Made by a program: the position numbers and the translations under genes. Under the pieces are notes generated by a model, which made no database searches, was not told the origin of the DNA, and saw nothing but the letters and a program-made list of their open reading frames with translations. A stretch of 33,449 nt of DNA from a bacterium (GTDB lineage: Bacteria; UBP6; UBA1177; JAGLDR01): assembly GCA_023145475.1 (NCBI GenBank), contig JAGLDR010000003.1, forward strand, positions 1-33,449, written 5' to 3'. Below, in pieces: positions 72 to 22,541 of this stretch (position 1 is the first letter of the stretch; every line of letters starts with the position of its first letter).

Positions 72-755
72 GTGTCAATTACAATTCGCTTTCAGAGCTT
101 TGTAAGTAGTGTTGGTGTGAGAAAATCCTTTTTTAACAATATCTTTGTAGCGTTAATAACTCGTTATTTCGCCCACTCAATAATGCTGTTTCTCGCTCTG
201 TTGCACGAGAGAGTTCCTGGTCATAAGCTGAATGATGTCCTGCTTAACACAGTGCCGTATGTTGCGGTAATAGACCGATTTAATTATATGATCTGGCTTT
301 TGTGTTATGTTCCTGTTGCGCTCTGGCTCTGGAAAAAGAATCGTCAGCGATTTATCCAATTTCTCTATCTTGGCGCACTTCTCAGCCTTATTCGTGGTGT
401 TGCTATATCGTTTGTGGCGATTGGTCCTGTTCGGGGAGGGGACATCAATGTTGGAATGAGTTACACGGCTATTTTCGACGCGTGGATTGCCATTGTTAAC
501 CCTATCTCAGCACTTTTTGGGAATGCAACTCACATCTATTTGACTAAAGATCTCTTCTTTTCAGGACATGTTGCGACGACTTTTCTTCTTTTTCTTTTTA
601 CCCTTCCTTATAAAAAGATGGCAACCGTTGCGCTGATTGCCCATCTTATCGTGGTTGGTGTCGTCTTTTTTAGCCATCTTCACTATACAATTGATGTGAT
701 TGGTGCCTGGATAATTACATATATTCTCTTTAGATTGATTATGAGAAGAAATTAG
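72..755 (+). CDS. Sphingomyelin-synthase-like (PAP2_C) membrane phosphotransferase
   Basis: A polytopic membrane protein of up to 227 residues. The C-terminal third carries the motif FSGHVATTF (about residues 163-171) and then HLHYTIDVIGAW (about 202-213). Together they give the His/His/Asp triad of the sphingomyelin-synthase-related branch of the PAP2 superfamily (PAP2_C), whose animal members have FSGHT and HYTxDV. By family, the enzyme would move or remove a phospho-headgroup on a lipid at the membrane surface; the actual substrate cannot be read from sequence. The start is uncertain: the frame opens at GTG 72 straight after an in-frame TGA, with no convincing ribosome binding site, and GTG 117 or ATG 183 are alternatives. 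A 39-base gap separates it from pyrK, to which it has no obvious link. Confidence 0.72.
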   Translation: MSITIRFQSFVSSVGVRKSFFNNIFVALITRYFAHSIMLFLALLHERVPGHKLNDVLLNTVPYVAVIDRFNYMIWLLCYVPVALWLWKKNRQRFIQFLYLGALLSLIRGVAISFVAIGPVRGGDINVGMSYTAIFDAWIAIVNPISALFGNATHIYLTKDLFFSGHVATTFLLFLFTLPYKKMATVALIAHLIVVGVVFFSHLHYTIDVIGAWIITYILFRLIMRRN

Positions 756-11862: not shown

Positions 11863-14238
11863 ATGAGACTGACGATACTATTTTTAACTCTATTTTTTCT
11901 GATACTGCCATTGAGCGGGAAGGATGTTACAGAACAACCAGCTGCAAAAGAGAAGCCTCCTCTTGCAATTCCTGTTGACTTCTCAGCTTTGCTGAGTGAT
12001 GGAAAGTATGAAGAATTTTTGCGAGTTGAAGAATCATTTAAACCAAAAGGGGCTGCAGCTCGAGCAAAACGCCATCTGCAAAAATTTGTCGCACTCTATG
12101 AGACAGGGCAATACAAAAAGATGGAGACAGAAGGGTGGTCGCTTCCTAAGAGATATGTGAATTCATTTTTTATTAAGTACTTGTCAATGCAAGCATATTT
12201 CGCCAGGAAGCGGTTTAAGCAGGCGGAGTTGCTGAATGATGAGCTTGTTGCATCATATCCATTGGCAATTTACCGTGATAGTGCATCCTGTATGAAGGCT
12301 GATATGGCACTCTATCGCCGGAAATATGATGAGGCTGAAAAGCTATTTGATGAGTGTATTCCGCAACTTAAAGATGCGAGCATGGCTTCTTACCGTTTGA
12401 TTCTTGCAAAAGAGAAGGGGCACTCGCCTAAAAGTAGGTTGCTTGGAAAATATATAGAGTATGATAGGCGTTACCCATACTCTCCTGCGGTCTCCCTCAT
12501 GCGAGAGCGATTTGAAACCCTTTATACAAAGTACAATCTCCCTTCAGAAAAATCACCACTGTTTAATGAGTGGCTCTATGCGATGAAACGCAATAAGATG
12601 TTGAAAAATATTCTAAAAAAATCCTGGTTTGATATTTCTGAGCCACCGTTGGCACTTGTCTCCTATCTGATGAAGGAGGAGCGTTTTACCGATGCGTATG
12701 AACTTGCAAAACGGGGTAGTGAACAGTGTGAAGATGATGGGAGACAGTATAAATATGGCTGGCAGATGTATCGTGCACTTTCAAAAGGTTCAAAGCCACA
12801 AGAGGCGGGTGAACATCTCCTTGAGTTGGCAAAGCAGGTCAAGAATACACGACGAAAACAGCAGGCACTCTTTTTTGCTGCTCTTGCATTTGAAGAGGCC
12901 GGGGTTTATGAAAAATCGAGGGGGCTATTTGAGCAGTTAATCTATCAAAAAGAGCGTTCGCCCTATTTTCTTCTCTCGTTGCACCGATTAGGAATGCACT
13001 ATTTAATCAAGGGGAATGAGTGGTATACAGCGACACTCTGGACAAATTTTCTTATAGATGAGGATCTCTCAATTCGTGGACAGTATGGTGGTCAGCGATT
13101 GCTGAATAATATGCGTAATGTTACTACAATTTTGAATAGAAAGAATGGATTTTATGCGCTCGGCGGTGCATCACCTCTCGTCTGTGATGATTTTGAAAAG
13201 TGTGAAACATCTGCAGGGTTTATCTCATATTATGATTTTTTATGGCACCATCTTGAGCAGCCGAGTTTTTCACACTCGTTTATGAAGGGGGTTTTCAAGA
13301 GTAATCGCTTTGAAAAGTGGCTCGCTTCATCTAAGAAGAGTCGAGCCGATTTATTGATACAATTAAAAAAAGATGTCAGAAAACTGCCACGCTCTGTAAG
13401 AAATGGTGAATATGGAGAGATGATGATTCACTGTGCAAATAGTGGTCTAAACTCTTGTATTGATTTCTATTTTACTGCATTGAGAGATGCGTTGCATACA
13501 GCAAAGAAACCGCCAGAAGAGTTGAGCGAAGCTGCTGACCGGTTTTTACATAGTGGTGAATCGGCAAAAATCGTTCTCTTTTCGAGAGTGGCTGCATCTC
13601 TGCTTAAGCTTTCTGAAAGAGATGCAGATTTAGTGGATCACCATTTTAGTCGCAGTAAAAAAAATCTCTCTTATGGACCTCATATTGATGATGACGAAGA
13701 GTTGTGGATGCATCTCTATCCAACACCCTATAAGCAGACAGCGCTCGAGGCAGCAAAATTATTTGGTGTTCCGCCGGCACTTCTTTTTTCTATTATGAGA
13801 ACAGAGACATTTTATCGACCTTTTTTGAGATCACCAGTTGGTGCGGTTGGACTTATGCAGATTATGCCGACAACTTTTGAAAAGATTATAGCTCTCGGTG
13901 GACTCTCTCTTGATGATCCATTTAATCCTCGGCAAAGTATTCAAGCGTCCGCTTGGTATCTTGGTAAGTTATTGAAAAGATTTGATAATAACCCATTTCT
14001 TGCTGCGGCTGCCTATAATGGTGGACCCCACAATGTTACAAAGTGGCTCGCACGATATAGAGGTGTTCCACTCTGGGTTTTTATAGAGTCTATCCCCTTT
14101 CGAGAGACACGGAATTATGTGAAAAAAGTGGCAAGATATATGGAACTTTACAGTTATTTATATGAAGGGCAATACTATGATTTGGAACTTCAAGCACCGC
14201 TCAATATTAAAGAATCTCCCGAAGTGGTTGGTTTTTAG
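11863..14238 (+). CDS. Soluble-type lytic transglycosylase (Slt70-like)
   Basis: Cleaves the MurNAc-GlcNAc bond of peptidoglycan in the periplasm, leaving 1,6-anhydro ends. The 791 residues have a signal peptide (1 to about 20), a long alpha-superhelical TPR-like region (about 40-600, with repeated Tyr/Ala helices) and a C-terminal SLT domain (about 625-770). The catalytic Glu648 lies in IMRTETFYRP; GAVGLMQIMPTT and AAAAYNGGPHNV are the classical goose-lysozyme-fold motifs. GAGGA precedes ATG 11863. It overlaps the SpoIID gene by 62 bases. The layout matches E. coli Slt70 but is longer than its ~645 residues. Confidence 0.92.
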   Translation: MRLTILFLTLFFLILPLSGKDVTEQPAAKEKPPLAIPVDFSALLSDGKYEEFLRVEESFKPKGAAARAKRHLQKFVALYETGQYKKMETEGWSLPKRYVNSFFIKYLSMQAYFARKRFKQAELLNDELVASYPLAIYRDSASCMKADMALYRRKYDEAEKLFDECIPQLKDASMASYRLILAKEKGHSPKSRLLGKYIEYDRRYPYSPAVSLMRERFETLYTKYNLPSEKSPLFNEWLYAMKRNKMLKNILKKSWFDISEPPLALVSYLMKEERFTDAYELAKRGSEQCEDDGRQYKYGWQMYRALSKGSKPQEAGEHLLELAKQVKNTRRKQQALFFAALAFEEAGVYEKSRGLFEQLIYQKERSPYFLLSLHRLGMHYLIKGNEWYTATLWTNFLIDEDLSIRGQYGGQRLLNNMRNVTTILNRKNGFYALGGASPLVCDDFEKCETSAGFISYYDFLWHHLEQPSFSHSFMKGVFKSNRFEKWLASSKKSRADLLIQLKKDVRKLPRSVRNGEYGEMMIHCANSGLNSCIDFYFTALRDALHTAKKPPEELSEAADRFLHSGESAKIVLFSRVAASLLKLSERDADLVDHHFSRSKKNLSYGPHIDDDEELWMHLYPTPYKQTALEAAKLFGVPPALLFSIMRTETFYRPFLRSPVGAVGLMQIMPTTFEKIIALGGLSLDDPFNPRQSIQASAWYLGKLLKRFDNNPFLAAAAYNGGPHNVTKWLARYRGVPLWVFIESIPFRETRNYVKKVARYMELYSYLYEGQYYDLELQAPLNIKESPEVVGF

Positions 14239-15769
14239 TACACTATTTTGGTTGACAACATTGAGTGCTTTACCGTCTGACGATTTTCAATTTATGCACT
14301 CTGCCTCTTTCCGATTTCGGGATAGCGTGCCTGTTATTCATGTTTTAGTTGAAAAAAAGAAGAGTGGTACATTTAAAATTAACGCACCTGTTCAAGCGCA
14401 GTGTGATGGGATGCAGCGGGTGTTTAAAGGGGTCGATATTACGGTGAAAGAGGTGGCGAGGGCGCGTGTTCGCTATGATGTTTCACTGATGGAGATTACC
14501 AAAGATGAGTTGTCAGACTATCAATCTTTAATAAAAAAGTGGGAGAGTTTGGCAAGAGAGAAGCTTTTTTTGCTGACAAGAGGCGGTATATTCTCTATTG
14601 GCAGCCATCGCATTAATAATCGTGAGTATCATATTGCTCTTTCTGGAGGCACCTCAAAAAAAGAGGCCTACAGGAAAATGCAGCAGCTACGCCGGAAGTT
14701 TCCCAATAAAAGCATCGCAATTATTCCACTTTTAGAGAGGCCACAGGAGTCTCTTATCACTTTAACTGAGAGGAGCTCAAAAAAGAAAAAGAGAGTGATG
14801 GAGTGCCACAATCTTGTCTATCTCTCACCGCAGACAAAAAACATTGTCTTTGGCTCTAAAACGGTAATCCCACATGAGCGAATTATTTTGACCTCTTCAA
14901 AGAAAGGGCAGTTAGATATTGTAACTGAATCAGATATTGAAAGTTTACTCTATCGTATTCTTCCAGGTGAGCTCTTTTTGAGTGCTCCACTTGAATCATT
15001 GAAAGCGCAGGCTGTGGCTGCAAGAACAGATATTTTTATGCAGCTAGGTAAACGCCATGTTACTGAACCTTTTCATATTTGCAGTTCAATTCACTGTCAA
15101 AAGATATTGTGGAGTCAGCCAATAATTCAACAAAAATTTCGAGATGCGGTTGATGCTACAAGAGGCGAGGTTTTGCTCCATAAGAAGCTCTATATTGCTC
15201 GCGCTCCCTACTCATCATCTGCGGGTGGACATACCGAAGACATTCGTTTTGTCTGGTTTACGGCAAAAAAAGAGTATTTGACAGGTGTCTGGGATGGTGA
15301 TAAGAGTTATCCTTATGATTTGAGAAAAGAGCGTGACTTGCGAGCGTTTCTTACGCACGGAGATGGAGAGGATAATATATCTATAAATAGGCGTTTTCGC
15401 TGGAAGAAAGAGTATACAGATGCACAATTTGATGCCTTTTTTGCAAAAAATGGACTGGGTCATATTAAAAAGTTTGTTCCATTGAAAAGGGGTGTTTCAG
15501 GACGAATTTATCATATTAAAGTTGTTGGAACAAGAAAAAGTATGGAGATTTGGGGCGAACTACACCTCCGGCGTAAACTTAACTCACTCTATAGCTCAAT
15601 GTTTGTCATTGACAGAAAGCCTGGCAAGTGGATTTTTACCGGTGGGGGCTGGGGTCATGGCGTTGGAATGTGTCAAATGGGTGCTATTGGAATGGGTAAA
15701 AAAGGTAAGGATTATAGAACGATATTGCGTCATTACTATCCAGGAACAGAGAGTGAAAAATTGTATTAA
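14177..15769 (+). CDS. SpoIID/LytB-domain protein with SPOR-like region
   Basis: About 530 residues: a signal peptide (about 1-32), an unassigned beta-rich region, a SPOR-like segment (about 138-185, with the RINNREYHIAL and KKEAYRKMQQL pattern) and a SpoIID domain (about 250-525). SpoIID proteins are peptidoglycan lytic transglycosylases that act on peptide-free glycan, or enhancers of amidases. Marks are LYRILPGEL, LKAQAVAARTD, SSSAGGHTED and the terminal GGGWGHGVGMCQMGAIGM. ATG 14177 is chosen over 14162 because GAAGGG lies about seven bases upstream, but this is not certain. It is encoded within the end of slt, so the two wall enzymes are probably made together. No other sporulation genes are nearby. 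Confidence 0.88.
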   Translation: MIWNFKHRSILKNLPKWLVFSTLFWLTTLSALPSDDFQFMHSASFRFRDSVPVIHVLVEKKKSGTFKINAPVQAQCDGMQRVFKGVDITVKEVARARVRYDVSLMEITKDELSDYQSLIKKWESLAREKLFLLTRGGIFSIGSHRINNREYHIALSGGTSKKEAYRKMQQLRRKFPNKSIAIIPLLERPQESLITLTERSSKKKKRVMECHNLVYLSPQTKNIVFGSKTVIPHERIILTSSKKGQLDIVTESDIESLLYRILPGELFLSAPLESLKAQAVAARTDIFMQLGKRHVTEPFHICSSIHCQKILWSQPIIQQKFRDAVDATRGEVLLHKKLYIARAPYSSSAGGHTEDIRFVWFTAKKEYLTGVWDGDKSYPYDLRKERDLRAFLTHGDGEDNISINRRFRWKKEYTDAQFDAFFAKNGLGHIKKFVPLKRGVSGRIYHIKVVGTRKSMEIWGELHLRRKLNSLYSSMFVIDRKPGKWIFTGGGWGHGVGMCQMGAIGMGKKGKDYRTILRHYYPGTESEKLY

Positions 15770-15844: not shown

Positions 15845-17350
15845 ATGAAAATTGGACAGACAATTTTAGTGATGTTTTTGTTGGTAATCATGATTAGTTG
15901 TGGTGACAAAAGTAATGATTCTGCCACAGACTTTGATCTTCGTTCCGATAGTGATTTGTTAGGCGATAGTGATGATGCCGTTAGCGATAATGATGCTGCT
16001 GCAGATGATGGTGAATCTGTTGATGATGACGCAACACCAGATGAGACGGTTGATTGGGACCAAAATTTGACACCCCCACCTGCTTCTGAGCCATTTATCA
16101 CTGTTTGGAAAACGGACAATTTAGATGAACATAACTCATATCAATCGCATGAAGATCAAATTGAGTTACCACTTGTAGAAAATGGATATTATAATTTTCT
16201 TGTTGATTGGGGTGATGGACACCAGCAGGTTATTCGTTCATGGGATTCAGCTTTGAAAAGACATACATATTCAGAGGTTGGGAGTTATACCGTTACGATA
16301 ACAGGGATTTTAACTGGGTGGGCATTTTATGAATATGACGAGGACTTAAGGCGTGAAATCCGTAAAGATGCAGATAAACTTCTTGAGGTGAAAGGGTGGG
16401 GTTGCTTTGAATTTGGCGACACTGAGGGACAGTTCTTTGGTGCAAAAAATCTTCTGATTACGGCAACAGATAAACCAGACTTGAGTCGTACAAAGAGTGC
16501 TAAAAAAATGTTTGAAGGATGTTCCCTGCTTGCTGATATTCCCGGAGTAAATAAGTGGGATATGTCAAAGATTGAAACTATGGAGGCGATGTTTTCCTCA
16601 GCTGTAGTCTTTAACCAAGATATTTCAATGTGGGATGTTTCGCAGGTTACTACTATGGAGCGAATGTTTTCACTTGCTCTACAGTTTAATCAGGATATTT
16701 CACCGTGGGATGTCTCTCATGTTACAACAATGAAGGCGATGTTTGAACATGCCGAACTTTTTAACCAAGATATTTCATCATGGAAAACTTCATCTCTTAC
16801 GAATGTAGAAAAGATGTTTATGTGGGCGAAAGTGTTTAATCAGAATATAGATACTTGGGATGTTTCAAAGGTTACAACAATGAAGGATTTCTTTTGGGGA
16901 ACTCGCGATTTCAATCAAAATATTGCATCGTGGGATGTTTCTCAAGTGACTGATATGAGTGGTCTTTTTTATTGGTCAACTTTGTTCAATCAAGATCTTT
17001 CAATGTGGAATGTGGGAAATGTAACAACGATGGCGAAGATGTTTGAGCATACGCTTGTATTTGATCAGAATCTTTCATCGTGGAGTGTGGAAAAGGTAAC
17101 CGATATGACAAAAATGTTTGCTGAAATCGAGCTTTCAACTGCAAACTATGATGCACTTCTTATTGGTTGGGCAGCTCAAACTGTTCAATCTGGGATAGTG
17201 TTGGATGTAGAAGCTTCGCAATATACTGCAGGAGCTGCAGCAACTGCACGACAAAAATTGATTGATGATTTCAGCTGGACAATCAATGATGGTGGCGAGC
17301 TAGGCGAAGTTGTAGGTGATGAAGATACACTTCCCGATGAGGATATCTAA
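15845..17350 (+). CDS. Lipoprotein with acidic stalk, PKD-like domain and BspA/DUF285 repeats
   Basis: A 501-residue predicted lipoprotein: a hydrophobic signal ending MISC (Cys19, a slightly atypical lipobox), an Asp-rich stalk (about 25-72), a PKD-like beta domain (about 80-165, with VDWGDGHQQ, RHTYSEVGSYTVTITG) and then DUF285 / BspA-type surface repeats. Seven 25-residue units of the form MFxxAxxFNQDISxWDVSxV run from about residue 249 to 423, with a partial unit on each side. The C terminus has the usual family ending ANYDALLIGWA...FSWTINDGG. Proteins of this kind occur on surfaces of varied bacteria and some bind host or matrix proteins; the ligand here is unknown. Confidence 0.87.
   Translation: MKIGQTILVMFLLVIMISCGDKSNDSATDFDLRSDSDLLGDSDDAVSDNDAAADDGESVDDDATPDETVDWDQNLTPPPASEPFITVWKTDNLDEHNSYQSHEDQIELPLVENGYYNFLVDWGDGHQQVIRSWDSALKRHTYSEVGSYTVTITGILTGWAFYEYDEDLRREIRKDADKLLEVKGWGCFEFGDTEGQFFGAKNLLITATDKPDLSRTKSAKKMFEGCSLLADIPGVNKWDMSKIETMEAMFSSAVVFNQDISMWDVSQVTTMERMFSLALQFNQDISPWDVSHVTTMKAMFEHAELFNQDISSWKTSSLTNVEKMFMWAKVFNQNIDTWDVSKVTTMKDFFWGTRDFNQNIASWDVSQVTDMSGLFYWSTLFNQDLSMWNVGNVTTMAKMFEHTLVFDQNLSSWSVEKVTDMTKMFAEIELSTANYDALLIGWAAQTVQSGIVLDVEASQYTAGAAATARQKLIDDFSWTINDGGELGEVVGDEDTLPDEDI
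16589..17113 (+). repeat. Seven 75-bp DUF285 repeat units
   Basis: Units begin at 16589, 16664, 16739, 16814, 16889, 16964 and 17039, each 25 codons, with the core FNQ(D/N)(I/L)S-W-(D)VS-VTTM. Related partial units flank them (from 16508 and from 17114). DNA copies are diverged, so this is an old array. Confidence 0.9.
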
Positions 17351-17432: not shown

Positions 17433-17471
17433 GCCTTGAAAAAGATGATCATAATTTGTAAGAGGGTCACT

Positions 17472-20400
17472 ATGAAATCAAAATTTTTAATGGGTTTTCT
17501 CCTTTTGTGTGTGATGGTATTTATGCCGCATACTATGATGGCAGCCAGCGGTGTTTTTCAGATGGAAGGTGAGACTTTTCACCAAAGAAACACCTATGAT
17601 GATCCTGTGTGGGAGGTTGTTGCACTTAAATACAGTTATGATATCCCAATTATTGTAACTATTCCCAACACCTCGGGAAATCATCCAGCTGATTTTAGAG
17701 TGAGAAATGTGACATCAACGACCTTTGAAACAACCATTGTTGAGCCTCCAGGATGGGATGGACCTCATGCTGCAATGGATGTTGCCTATTTTGCAGTAGA
17801 GAAGGGGCTGTGGACACTTCCTGACGGAACTTTAGTTGCTGCAGGAACCGTTGATACTAAAGCGGTGGTCAGCCGTACAGGAGGAACTTTCACCTCGGTT
17901 ACTCTTCCATCTGGTTTTACCAATCCAATTATTTTGACTATGATTCAAACAATAAATAATGAGACTGGAAATGTGCCAGATGAGTCATCTAGTCCATGGT
18001 TAAATGCCATTGTTAAAAATGTAACAGCAACAAGTTTTGATGTTGCGTTAGATAATGGTGAATGTAGTTCTGGACCGTTAGCTTTGACAGAAACGGTTGG
18101 CTGGGTTGCCATTGAAGCTGATGTTAATGGCTCTTTTGTTGATGATGATGCTGTAACGATTACCCATGAATCGATTAAAACGGACCCTATTATTACGGGC
18201 TGGAATGAGGGAGGTGTTCAAGTGCCCCTCACTCAAACATATGCTGTTACTCCTCGTTTTGTTGCAAAATTGCAGTCAAGAAATGCAAGCGATGGTGGAT
18301 GGTTTAGATTTAACGGACTTTCACCAACTAGCGTTACTCTTAGAGTTGATGAAGATACCTGTTTTGACAGTGAAAGATCACATTCAGACTATCCTGAAGT
18401 TGCAGGAGTTTTTGTCTTTTCAGAAAGTTTTAGAGTGCAAGATGATGATAATGATGGTGATGGTATTCCTGCAGCCATAGATAACTGTCCTACAATTGCA
18501 AATGTTGATCAAGCTGATGGGGACTTGGATGGTGTTGGCGATGTGTGCGATAACTGCATAAGTGATGTAAATACGCCTCAAATTGACACAGATGACGACG
18601 GTTTTGGTAATGTTTGTGATGATGATGATGATAATGATGGTCTCACAGATGTTGAAGAGATAGCGCTGGGAACTGATCCATTGCTTGCAGATAGTGATGG
18701 TGACGGTCTGAATGATTACATTGAAAGTAACGGTGGAAATGTGGTTGATAGTGATGGTGATGGAATCCAAGATCCACTTGATACCGATGATGACGATGAT
18801 GGGATAGATACTGCCGTTGAGGTGAGTGATAGCTCTGTTTTTGGTGATGATATTGATGGTGATGCCATTCCAAATTGGTTAGATGAAAATAGTGATGGTG
18901 ACATGCTAGATGACTTTTTTGAAGGTCGTTTTGATGATGACAATGACGGTGTTCCAAACTATCTTGATCCAGACGATACTGATGGACCTGACGGTGATGC
19001 CGATGGCGATGGTTTGACAAATGCAGAAGAGGTATATCTGCATACAAATCCGAACAATCCTGATACCGATGGTGATGGGATTGATGACTTTGTTGAAACT
19101 AACGGTGGAGACCCAGTCGATACAGATGGTGATTGGATTATCGATGCAAATGATCCAGACTCAGACAATGATGGCGTTGATGACTCCGTTGAAGGTGTTG
19201 GCGATATTGATGGTGATGGTACGCCTAACTATCGTGATGCTAATGTTTGTGGTGACGGTGGAAATCAAGGTTCTGAAGAGTGTGATGACGGGGCGAACAG
19301 TGACGGTGATGGTTGTGATGCAACCTGCTATGTTGAGTCAGGATACAGTTGTGATGCTGCAAACCCAAGTGTTTGTAGTGATGTAGACGAATGCGCAGAC
19401 AGCACAAACAACTGTGATCAAAATTGTAGTAACACAGTTGGTGGATTTACCTGCTCTTGTAATGCAGGCTATACGCTGAACGCAGACGGACATACTTGTG
19501 ATGATGTTGATGAATGTACCGATGACACAGATGGTTGTGCACAAGATTGTACAAATACCGCTGGTAGTTACACCTGTTCATGTGCATCAGGTTATACGCT
19601 GAACGGTGACGGACATGGCTGTGATGATGTAGATGAATGTACCGATGATACCGATGGTTGCGCACAAGATTGTACAAATACCGCTGGTAGTTACACCTGT
19701 TCATGTAATGCAGGATATACGCTGAATGGCGATGGTTTTACCTGTGATGATGTTGATGAATGTGCAGACAGTACCGACAACTGTACTCAAAACTGTAACA
19801 ACACGCCAGGTGGCTTTACCTGTGACTGTAATGCAGGATACGCACTAAATGCGGATGGATTTACCTGTGATGATGTTGATGAATGTACTACTGGTACGAC
19901 TAACTGTGAACAAATCTGTATTAATGATATTGGAAGTTATCACTGTGACTGTAATCTAGGGTTTGTGCTCTATCCAGATGAATATGCCTGTGCTGTTGAC
20001 ACCGATTCTGACGATGTGCCTGATGTTATCGATAGTGATGACGATGGTGATGGAATTCTTGATGCCGATGAAGGTAATGGCACCGTTGATACTGATGGTG
20101 ATACCATTCCTGATAGCTTAGATCTTGATTCTGATGGTGATGGTGTTCCTGATTCAATCGAAGGTTTTGACACGAATAGTGATGGCGTTCCAGATATTAC
20201 GCCAACAGGAAATGACACCGATAATGATGGATTAGACGATGCGTTTGATACGGATAATGGTGGAACTCCCGCCTCGTTGCAAGACACAGACAGTGATACC
20301 ATTTTTGATTTCCAAGATGATGATGATGATAATGACGGGCTTGATACAATAAATGAAGATGAAAATGGAAATGGTGATTTTGCTGATGATGATGAAGATG

Positions 20401-22541
20401 GCGATGGCATTCCTGATTATTTAGATCCTGATAATGTAGCAACACCAGATGAAGATGTTATTTCAGATGTGGACGCAGTCGCAGATATGGACACAGTCGC
20501 AGACATTGATGCAGTCGCAGATATTGATGAAGTTGCAGATATGGACGCAGTCGCAGACATGGATGAAGTTACAGATATGGATGCAGTAGCAGATATTGAC
20601 GCAGTCGCAGACATTGACGCAGTCGCAGACATTGATGAAGTTGCTGATATGGACGCAGTCGCAGACATTGATGCAGTCGCAGATATGGATGAAGTAGCAG
20701 ACATTGATGCCGTTGATGATTCTGATGATTCAGAAACATCTGATGATCCGTATGCAGGCTATAAAGTTAAGGGTGGTGGTTGTTCTTTGACAATTTCTGA
20801 TGATGAAACATCTGAAAGCTCTCTTCTGTTGGCTCTGTTAGCTCTTTTTCTTTCACTTTTCTTATCGTGGTTTATACCTAAAAAAAAAGGTATAATCGTC
20901 ATAGCACTGTTTTTGATGCTGACGACGACATCTCTTCTCAACGCTGAAGCATCAATAAATGTAAAAGCCTACAATCAAAGCCCACTGCATGGAAACATTT
21001 TGTCAACACACGATGCTCTTCCTGCTCCACTCTGGGATATCTATTTTGGATTTCTTGTGGGTTACAGCCACAAACCGCTGGTGCTTGAAAGTACCTCTTC
21101 AACAACTTCAGACAGGACACTTGTAGGCAGTCGAGTGGATTTGGATTTATATGGTTCTGTTGGATTTGGTAGGTGGTTTGATTTTGGTATTACCTTGCCT
21201 GTTATCCTCTATCAAGGCGGCGATGGTTATCTGAATGAAGATATGACTCATGGCGGTGTCGGTGATTTGACAATTCTTCCTCGCTTTCATATTTGGGGAC
21301 CCAAAAGTCATGTTTTTGATGCTGCAATTATTCTTGAAACCACATTCCCAACAGGGCAGGCGGTCGATCCATTTATGGGCTCTTCGAGTGTAACATTTTC
21401 TCCAACTTTGGCACTTTCAACAAGAATAAAGTGGTTTCACGCTGCTTTTAACTTCTATTACAGAATTGTGAAAGAGCAGACAGTCGGCAACTTGACAGTT
21501 GATGATGAAATTGGAATGAAACTCGCACTCTCGTTTTCTGTTATTAAAAATCTTGATCTGATGACAGATGTGTTAATAAAATCTTCTGCAAAGAACTATT
21601 TTAAAGATTTGACTCAATCGCCAGTTTTGCTCAACATCGGTGCTAAAGGGTATTTGAAAGAGAGAAAGATTGAACTTAGTGCGGGAACAGGTTTTGGTTT
21701 GACTGAGGGGTATGGAAATCCTATTTTTCATGTTTTTGGACAATTTACCTATCATATTGGCCACGAAAAGAAGAAGCCAGAGCCAAAACCCGAACCAAAG
21801 CCAGAGCCAAAGCCAGCTCCCGTTGCGCCACCTGATGCAGATAAAGATGGCATTCCTGATGCAAAAGATAACTGCCCGAAAATAGCAAACAAAGAGCAGA
21901 AAGATATAGATGGCGATAAGAAAGGTGATGTGTGCGATGAGGATAAAGATGGCGATACAATTCTTAATAAGGATGATAATTGCCCAGATATCGTCAACAA
22001 AGAGCAAAAAGACAGAGACAATGACAAAAAAGGTGATTTGTGCGACGATGATATTGATGGTGACACTATTCTTAATGAAAAAGATATGTGCCCAAAGAAG
22101 CCAGAGAGTGTCAATCAGTTTGAAGACGAAGATGGCTGTCCAGACATCAAACCTGTGGCAAAACTGAAGCATATCGAAGTTGTAAAAAACAAAATTGTGG
22201 TAAAATCAAAGATTTTCTTTGCACTCGGTAGAGCAACGATTAGGAAGAAGTCGTTAAGCACTCTTGATGAGGTGGTAATGATTCTTGAATCAAACCCAGA
22301 TATTCACATGGTTATTGAAGGACATACCGACAAAATTGGTAATTATGATAACAATGTTGCACTTTCCCAAAAGCGAGCTGATTCGGTGATGAATTATATC
22401 GTTAAAAAAGGCATTGATGCTAGTAGACTCACCGCAAAAGGGTACGGTCCAGATTTTCCAATTGCACCTGGGAACACACGAAAAGATAACAATATGAACA
22501 GAAGAGTTGAGTTCAACGTTGTCTTTCAAGATGCAGAATAA
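17472..22541 (+). CDS. Giant TSP3/EGF surface protein fused to an OmpA-family protein (possible polyprotein)
   Basis: A 1689-residue protein (ATG 17472 after GAGGG). In order: signal peptide (1-26); three ~95-residue beta domains, weakly H-type-lectin-like (about 28-320); thrombospondin type-3 Asp repeats (about 323-592); a DUF4215 Cys motif (593-635); five calcium-binding EGF-like domains (637-841); more TSP3 (about 842-1000); a DxVADx acidic stalk (1001-1084); GGGC with Cys1104; a hydrophobic helix (1118-1135); PKKK; a second hydrophobic segment (1140-1158) with AEA (1158-1160) resembling a signal-peptidase site; an outer-membrane barrel-like region (about 1161-1420); a Pro/Glu/Lys linker and TSP3 repeats; and an OmpA peptidoglycan-binding domain (about 1565-1689, with [13 protein letters not shown] and NRRVEF). 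The C half should sit in the outer membrane and bind the wall. The N half resembles a calcium-dependent adhesin, by inference. Confidence 0.85.
19380..19994 (+). repeat. Five tandem 123-bp calcium-binding EGF-like units
   Basis: Units start at 19380, 19503, 19626, 19749 and 19872, each 41 codons beginning DVDEC and holding six Cys in EGF order. Units 2 and 3 share an exact 44-bp block (gcacaagattg to acctgttcatgt), so that duplication is recent. Confidence 0.92.
20472..20723 (+). repeat. Fourteen 18-bp units encoding an Asp-rich stalk
   Basis: A six-residue unit, Asp-(Ala/Glu/Thr)-Val-Ala-Asp-(Ile/Met), repeats 14 times without interruption; the last unit is degenerate. Bases such as gcagtcgcaga recur almost unchanged, so copy number is likely to vary between strains. 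Confidence 0.93.
20872..20895 (+). other. A9 homopolymer inside an 8-bp inverted repeat at the fusion junction
   Basis: TTATACCT (20872-20879) and AGGTATAA (20888-20895) are perfect complements around eight A; counting the A in the right arm, the run is nine (20880-20888). In frame it reads Pro-Lys-Lys-Lys-Gly. With one A fewer the reading becomes Pro-Lys-Lys-Lys-Val-stop. Confidence 0.6.

Follow-up and report, generated by a model that had tools for sequence, protein, structure and literature searches.

The animal sphingomyelin synthase (SMS) family includes SMS1, SMS2 and SMSr (SAMD8), the last being available as solved structures (8ijq, 8ijr). In SMS2 the catalytic triad is formed by H229, H272 and D276, and E271 is specific to, and needed for, ceramide-phosphoethanolamine (CPE) synthase activity; in SMSr the residues of interest are E205, D295, H301, H344 and D348, and the D3 motif of the animal enzymes reads C-G-D-x3-S-G-H-T, as far as the accessible text of PMC11663969 goes. 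The inositol phosphorylceramide (IPC) synthases (yeast Aur1, 9ivc; the membrane enzyme 9vj4) also belong to the PAP2 superfamily and also transfer a phospho-headgroup to ceramide. In Bacteroides, deletion of the AUR1 homologue BT_1522 abolishes phosphoinositol dihydroceramide according to the accessible part of PMC9246714; a bacterial headgroup enzyme of this general kind, likened to ours by description, is thus already known. Among the phospho-headgroup-adding enzymes it is the one for which we found genetic proof. Bacterial genes for the ceramide backbone have been recognised in many phyla: the accessible text of PMC11334938 identifies potential sphingolipid producers by a serine palmitoyltransferase (SPT) clade together with bCerS (1e-30) and CerR, and widens their known range from 9 phyla to 40. 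In P. fluorescens MYb115, SgaA (a PKS) and SgaB (an alpha-oxoamine synthase, AOS, with SPT activity) make sphinganines, and PG (phosphoglycerol) sphingolipids are proposed as products in what is accessible of PMC12134224, a text that names no headgroup enzyme. Among the titles listed in the literature covered, which takes in few subscription papers, none deals with what a bacterial SMS-type (PAP2_C) protein does. Such a family matters for knowing which bacteria produce phosphosphingolipids and for the origin of the animal enzyme. Its members are small single-gene proteins and can be assayed directly.

The protein considered here is a membrane protein of 227 residues, encoded from a GTG start at positions 72–755 of the forward strand. 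The stretch of DNA analysed, here called the window, is an entire contig (1–33449 of 33449) of a 2.35 Mb genome in 246 contigs that is 94.6% complete. As the window is the whole contig, 71 bp are known upstream of the gene. The start codon is uncertain, because the first two blocks of ten residues have a pLDDT of 52 and 58 in the AlphaFold model; translation may instead begin at about residue 16. Downstream follow matches to a dihydroorotate dehydrogenase electron-transfer subunit, a dihydroorotate dehydrogenase and a LysM-M23 peptidase. These pyrimidine and peptidase genes are uninformative on the function of the SMS-like protein, the gene of which, with pyrimidine genes next to it, lies apart from the sphingolipid genes of the genome.

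The original prediction had likened two segments, FSGHVATTF and HYTIDVIGAW, to the active-site blocks of animal sphingomyelin synthases. Both are present, at residues 163–171 and 204–213, and the family matches go beyond chance. PAP2_C (PF14360) is matched with 33.7 bits (E 5.3e-8, cut-off 27), as the sole Pfam family above its cut-off. A phmmer search of the PDB (E up to 10) yielded SMSr alone, in the form of two sequences, the better one at E 1.3e-4 over query residues 39–220. NCBIfam gave no match up to E 0.1. PAP2_3 (PF14378), to which we take Aur1 to belong, stayed below its cut-off (19.1 versus 27 bits), which distinguishes the protein from the Aur1 type; PF01569 matched weakly (E 0.27).

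An alignment of 44 rows, made of the window protein and 43 loci from the best 80 of 491 relatives (L102, L104, L112, L113, L124 and L125 of L100–L129 and 31 of L130–L179 being omitted), sharpens this picture. As a profile it matches human SMSr with E 1.5e-16 over nearly its full length (positions 13–226 of 231); apart from SMSr, the PDB matches up to E 10 consist of PgpB alone (E 0.2, positions 170–225). At E 0.01 or better, PAP2_C is matched by all 44 rows and PF01569 by 30.

The fold tells the same. The AlphaFold model (pLDDT 91.9, pTM 0.87) is predicted to have the core fold of the animal SMS family. In Foldseek, SMSr with ceramide (8ijq) is the single match at E 1e-3 or better, and it also ranks first in VIA-align (Z 17.2, rmsd 3.6 over 208). 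IPC synthase 9vj4 (Z 11.6), Aur1 9ivc (Z 11.1), LpxE and LPP1 (Z 10.0 each) and PgpB (Z 9.3) come next; with helical folds a Z under about 13 means little, so that only SMSr stands clear. The window protein represents the SMS core alone, 227 residues as against 415 in 8ijr.

The residues on which catalysis depends in the animal enzymes are largely retained. In the D1-like segment HERVPGHKLND (204–236, forward strand like the following; residues 45–55), HERVP is identical in SMSr; its E46 is found in 40 and its Asp, D55, in all of the 44 rows. R108-G109 (393–398) lies in the D2-like segment and contributes another invariant residue, R108. Asp160, equivalent to SMSr D295, and the triad residue His166 mark the two ends of the D3-like block DLFFSGH (549–569, residues 160–166), and the D4 block LHYTID (678–695, residues 203–208) holds the triad residues His204 and Asp208. 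In all 44 rows, D55, R108, D160, S164-G165-H166, H204-Y205 and D208 are invariant; the His-His-Asp triad (H166, H204, D208), aligned to that of SMSr, is thus intact throughout.

There are also departures from SMSr and SMS2. The D3 motif is kept in part: in TKDLFFSGHV the Asp is retained, the Cys-Gly before it (CGD to TKD) and the final Thr are replaced. The column of SMSr E205, at about residues 71–72, is Asn-Tyr here and acidic in none of the 44 rows. In SMS2 a Glu, E271, stands beside the D4 His; its counterpart here is Leu203, and this column has Leu in 24 and Ile in one of the 25 close rows, the window protein included, and Val in 15, Ile in three and Glu in one of the other 19. An SMS-like protein from a Spirochaetia MAG (L130:7977–8687) reads HEHYTID and has, next to the catalytic His, the Glu of the animal type.

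Lipid phosphate phosphatases of the LPP/PgpB type are marked by the motifs Kx6RP, PSGH and SRx5Hx3D. Could the protein be such a phosphatase, acting for instance on phosphatidate, PGP or undecaprenyl diphosphate? The superfamily is the same, the PF01569 matches mentioned above speak for it, the PAP2 core fold, SGH and HxxxD are shared with LpxE, LPP1 and PgpB (Z 9–10), and human SMSr itself has PAP activity according to the accessible text of PMC11663969. All the same, we consider this improbable. The three motifs are absent from the window protein, and within the alignment PSGH and SRx5Hx3D occur in 0/44 rows and Kx6RP in 1/44, whereas both generic PAP2 controls have all three. The fold scores of the phosphatases are lower, the profile prefers SMSr to PgpB by the E values given, and the tree separates the window protein from the two generic PAP2 rows, if with modest support.

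This tree comprises 40 rows: 30 SMS-like proteins, human SMSr, seven Aur1-like and two generic PAP2 proteins. The label “Aur1-like” was given by inspection and is unproven, since phmmer with one such protein gave a weak PgpB match and no Aur1. The SMS-like proteins and human SMSr fall on one side, the Aur1-like and generic PAP2 proteins on the other, with 87/50 for the split and 97/95 for the separate Aur1-like branch. SMSr lies inside the SMS-like side, together with Myxococcota-type rows (92/86), and pairs with the Spirochaetia protein L130 (97/84); its branch is very long (3.97). Because of the 87/50 support and this long branch, the tree alone is moderate evidence. The original prediction would have fallen with a placement among generic PAP2 phosphatases and a lack of sphingolipid genes, and neither was seen: the protein groups with human SMSr, apart from generic PAP2, and sphingolipid-type genes are present in the genome, as described below. 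Profile and fold also favour SMSr over the phosphatases. There is good support for placing the product of 72–755 in the SMS branch of the PAP2 superfamily and for reading it as an SMS-type phospho-headgroup transferase; headgroup chemistry of the SMS type appears highly probable.

A single-sequence search of 99 genomes, the own one included, returned the protein itself and homologues in three genomes of the same phylum (G025–27, from another family); it found none in 24 genomes of the same order. A 4-sequence profile matched 26 of 386 genomes at E 1e-3, eight of them better than 1e-15 (G000, which is the own genome, G025, G026, G027, G202, G278, G141 and G330); the weaker matches include proteins that are Aur1-like or generic PAP2 by inspection. 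The same-order genome G013 was dropped as a carrier, its match (6.9e-4) being confined to query positions 82–133. In named genomes, a scan with the single sequence found no relative; a scan with the alignment as query gave 491, of which the best 80 were taken. Thirty of these 80 are close relatives (L100–L129), by record title 20 myxobacterial, four “delta”, three from Planctomycetota and three others, among them an Ilumatobacter MAG and a Thermoanaerobaculum MAG. Of the other 50 (L130–L179), one is from Spirochaetia and one from Myxococcales; the remaining 48 are of the Bacteroidota kind and include two Melioribacter. Culturable carriers among the 80 are Anaeromyxobacter (L120, L125, L128) and Mucilaginibacter or Pedobacter (L174, L176). 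The 24 close relatives in the alignment are 32–52% identical to the window protein. Members of the SMS-like family occur in Myxococcota, Planctomycetota, Bacteroidota and Spirochaetia; among solved structures, animal SMSr is the one clear relative.

Gene neighbourhoods were mapped for 79 of the 80 loci (L125 left out). The close clade has no conserved lipid-gene neighbour in this comparison. Among L130–L179, a member of an SDR cluster occurs at 24 of the 50 loci (the clustering is by single linkage, and some members, such as one of 706 aa, may be unrelated), and a PhyH-type gene at 21. The order nagB, SMS-like gene, outer-membrane-type protein, PhyH dioxygenase, SDR, with gene names that reflect our reading of the sequences, recurs in 19 Bacteroidota loci (L133–L179) and is possibly a sphingolipid-modifying cluster. 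The 60 PDB matches listed for the neighbouring SDR include no 3-ketosphinganine reductase.

Whether a sphingolipid is at hand as acceptor can be judged from the genome itself, where the original prediction had advised a search for SPT and other sphingolipid genes. The search disclosed a pair of bCerS-like and CerR-like genes and an SPT-like AOS linked to a PKS. The bCerS-like ORF (C105:6489–7610, 374 aa) matches the query, which we take to be the bCerS of the Caulobacter layout, with E 3.5e-59 and 30% identity; the threshold was E 1e-30 or better, as in the accessible text of PMC11334938. It is adjoined by a CerR-like epimerase of 326 aa, the arrangement by which we recognise bacterial ceramide synthesis, and on its other side by a citryl-CoA-lyase-like gene.

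The genome has 17 Aminotran_1_2 matches, four of which are AOS by our reading. One of these lies directly behind a reducing type I PKS (contig C167, L023:11257–19102, reverse strand). The PKS has 2160 aa and the domains KS-AT-DH-ER-KR-ACP; in NCBIfam, mycobacterial fatty-acyl PKS models are among the best matches, with scores below their cut-offs. For the AOS, the two best PDB matches are SPTs, with other AOS enzymes close behind. Against the NCBIfam SPT models it stays under every cut-off (293 versus 640, 272 versus 500 and 242 versus 670 bits), a score that does not discriminate, since genes of the Kbl/BioF type score equally high. A tree of 55 rows (L079, L203, L191, L081, L015, L083 and five duplicate rows left out) was built. 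In it the PKS-linked AOS falls together with two PKS-AOS fusions from myxobacteria (99/96), and this group shares one branch with 13 bCerS-adjacent SPT-type rows and five unlabelled rows (98/94), the Kbl- and BioF-type rows lying outside. With the six named rows kept, the grouping is the same (98/95). The AOS sits among the SPT-type rows on a long branch of its own (2.03), and the rows contain no experimentally proven SPT. Row L063 (G122), unlabelled in the tree and adjoining a bCerS match, lies on the same branch. In 36 other genomes searched, the PKS-linked AOS has no match above 39% identity.

In its layout, a PKS gene and then an AOS gene that is placed with the SPT type, the locus resembles SgaAB. 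It differs in that no SDR gene was seen beside the pair among the ORFs scanned, and in that bCerS- and CerR-like genes are found elsewhere in the genome. Matches to bCerS and AOS lie directly side by side in the same-order genomes G002, G004, G006, G008, G014, G015 and G022; in view of these relatives, the canonical SPT of our organism may be replaced by the PKS-linked one or may fall into an assembly gap. AOS matches within frames of more than 2000 aa were seen in seven of 38 genomes. The two myxobacterial fusions of the tree, AOS-containing proteins of about 2300 aa, come from a Myxococcaceae MAG (L210:8599–15663) and an Archangium MAG (L211:2064–8930); the former has the domains KS-AT-KR-DH-AOS and, as neighbours, an AMP-ligase and a cyclopropane-synthase-like methyltransferase (both domains and neighbours read on L210).

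A neutral-ceramidase-like ORF on the PKS contig (L023:4168–5718, reverse strand) was rejected as a supporting gene. The nucleophilic Ser of neutral ceramidase presumably lies in the GDxSP region, and the ORF has GDVGP where 4wgk has GDVSP. With Gly instead of Ser at the nucleophile position it was not counted; its score is 64 bits against an NCBIfam cut-off of 1200. Genes resembling recJ, secF, secD and yajC lie between this ORF and the AOS.

With regard to the acceptor, three things make the case for ceramide: the nearest relative of solved structure is SMSr, the fold agrees, and the organism has the genes mentioned; ceramide is the likely acceptor of the 72–755 product. The suggestion of the original prediction that the organism may remodel phosphosphingolipids or another headgroup gains support from the SMSr-like placement and the ceramide-pathway-like genes. 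As a whole, the reading as an SMS-type headgroup transferase with a sphingolipid acceptor is one to which we lean, with moderate confidence.

The distribution of bCerS was also considered as a proof, and was discarded. It is present in four of the eight strong SMS-like carriers and in 127 of the other 378 genomes (Fisher p 0.45, a rough value because the genomes are related); the SMS-like genes do not track bCerS beyond chance. The three same-phylum carriers of another family (G025–27) have none. In the close clade, 12 of the 30 genomes have bCerS at 1e-30 or better, two a weak match and 16 none, in assemblies that may be incomplete and again among the best 80 of 491. Conversely, eight of the 24 genomes from the same order carry bCerS but lack a clear SMS-like gene. 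The strong carrier G330 has no bCerS, but an AOS (row L075) on the SPT branch; bCerS is thus not the sole mark of sphingolipid genes. These results imply that the SMS-like family overall need not act on ceramide.

These carriers, G025–27 and the 16 genomes of the close clade, lend weight to a different acceptor. The chemistry could be of the same SMS type with a glycerolipid as acceptor, as in phosphatidylcholine:diacylglycerol cholinephosphotransferase, or the protein could mainly be a phospholipase C that releases diacylglycerol. Weak matches to Pfam AtPDCT1_2 in 11 of the 44 aligned rows (best E 2.8e-4) point to the former; phospholipase C activity of SMS2 and SMSr, described in the accessible parts of PMC11663969 and PMC7988496, points to the latter. 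However, AtPDCT1_2 is absent from the Pfam matches of the window protein itself, the solved structure closest to it in fold is SMSr with ceramide, and its own genome has ceramide-pathway-like genes. We regard this alternative as doubtful, though worth serious thought. The same carriers would also be explained if ceramide were taken up from a host or from neighbours and not made by the cell; the bCerS-, CerR- and SPT-like genes in the window's own genome make this highly improbable here.

In three genomes (G156:C4, G293:C10, G198:C63), PAP2 matches that are Aur1-like by inspection lie no more than 150 bp from bCerS matches, the strands being convergent. This closeness agrees with a role of PAP2-type transferases in the last step of bacterial sphingolipid synthesis, but in another sub-branch.

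For the preferred reading, SMS-type transfer to a sphingolipid, we infer catalysis, its direction, the acceptor and the membrane side of the 72–755 product from the data above. By analogy, the triad His204, paired with Asp208, would attack the phosphodiester of a glycerophospholipid; the enzyme would hold the phospho-headgroup while diacylglycerol leaves, and would then pass it, with the assistance of His166, to an acceptor hydroxyl. The acceptor would most likely be ceramide or a long-chain base, made by the reducing PKS, the SPT-like enzyme and the bCerS- and CerR-like enzymes.

As to donor lipids, the genome has a PS decarboxylase gene, an inositol-1-phosphate synthase above cut-off and five CDP-alcohol transferase matches, of which one is above the PgsA cut-off, another is weakly like the CDP-inositol/DIPP synthase family (88 versus 580 bits) and two are PssA-like ORFs that remain below the cut-off (97.5 and 94.8 versus 107 bits). 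Judged by these genes, PE, PG and inositol phosphate suggest themselves. The lost acidic residue beside the D4 His suggests, as far as a residue can, that the headgroup is neither choline nor ethanolamine. In view of the Leu at this position in 24 of the 25 close rows, we tend towards an uncharged head, either inositol or glycerol, with ethanolamine as a further candidate.

The place of human SMSr inside the SMS-like side of the tree invites a wider speculation. The bacterial branch would be ancestral to the animal SMS family, and at the end of a PKS-fed sphingolipid pathway a true member of the SMS branch would attach an uncharged phospho-headgroup, either inositol or glycerol. We deem this combination rather unlikely.

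Some other genes deserve mention. At 17436–22541 the window encodes a protein of 1701 aa that combines EGF-type and TSP3 repeats with an OmpA domain at its C-terminus, an animal-like mix of extracellular domains. DUF285 repeat proteins are encoded at 15845–17350 of the window and at L023:19436–19984, the latter upstream of the PKS. At 14162–15769 of the window, the gene of a SpoIID-domain protein overlaps the end of a lytic-transglycosylase-like gene (11863–14238).
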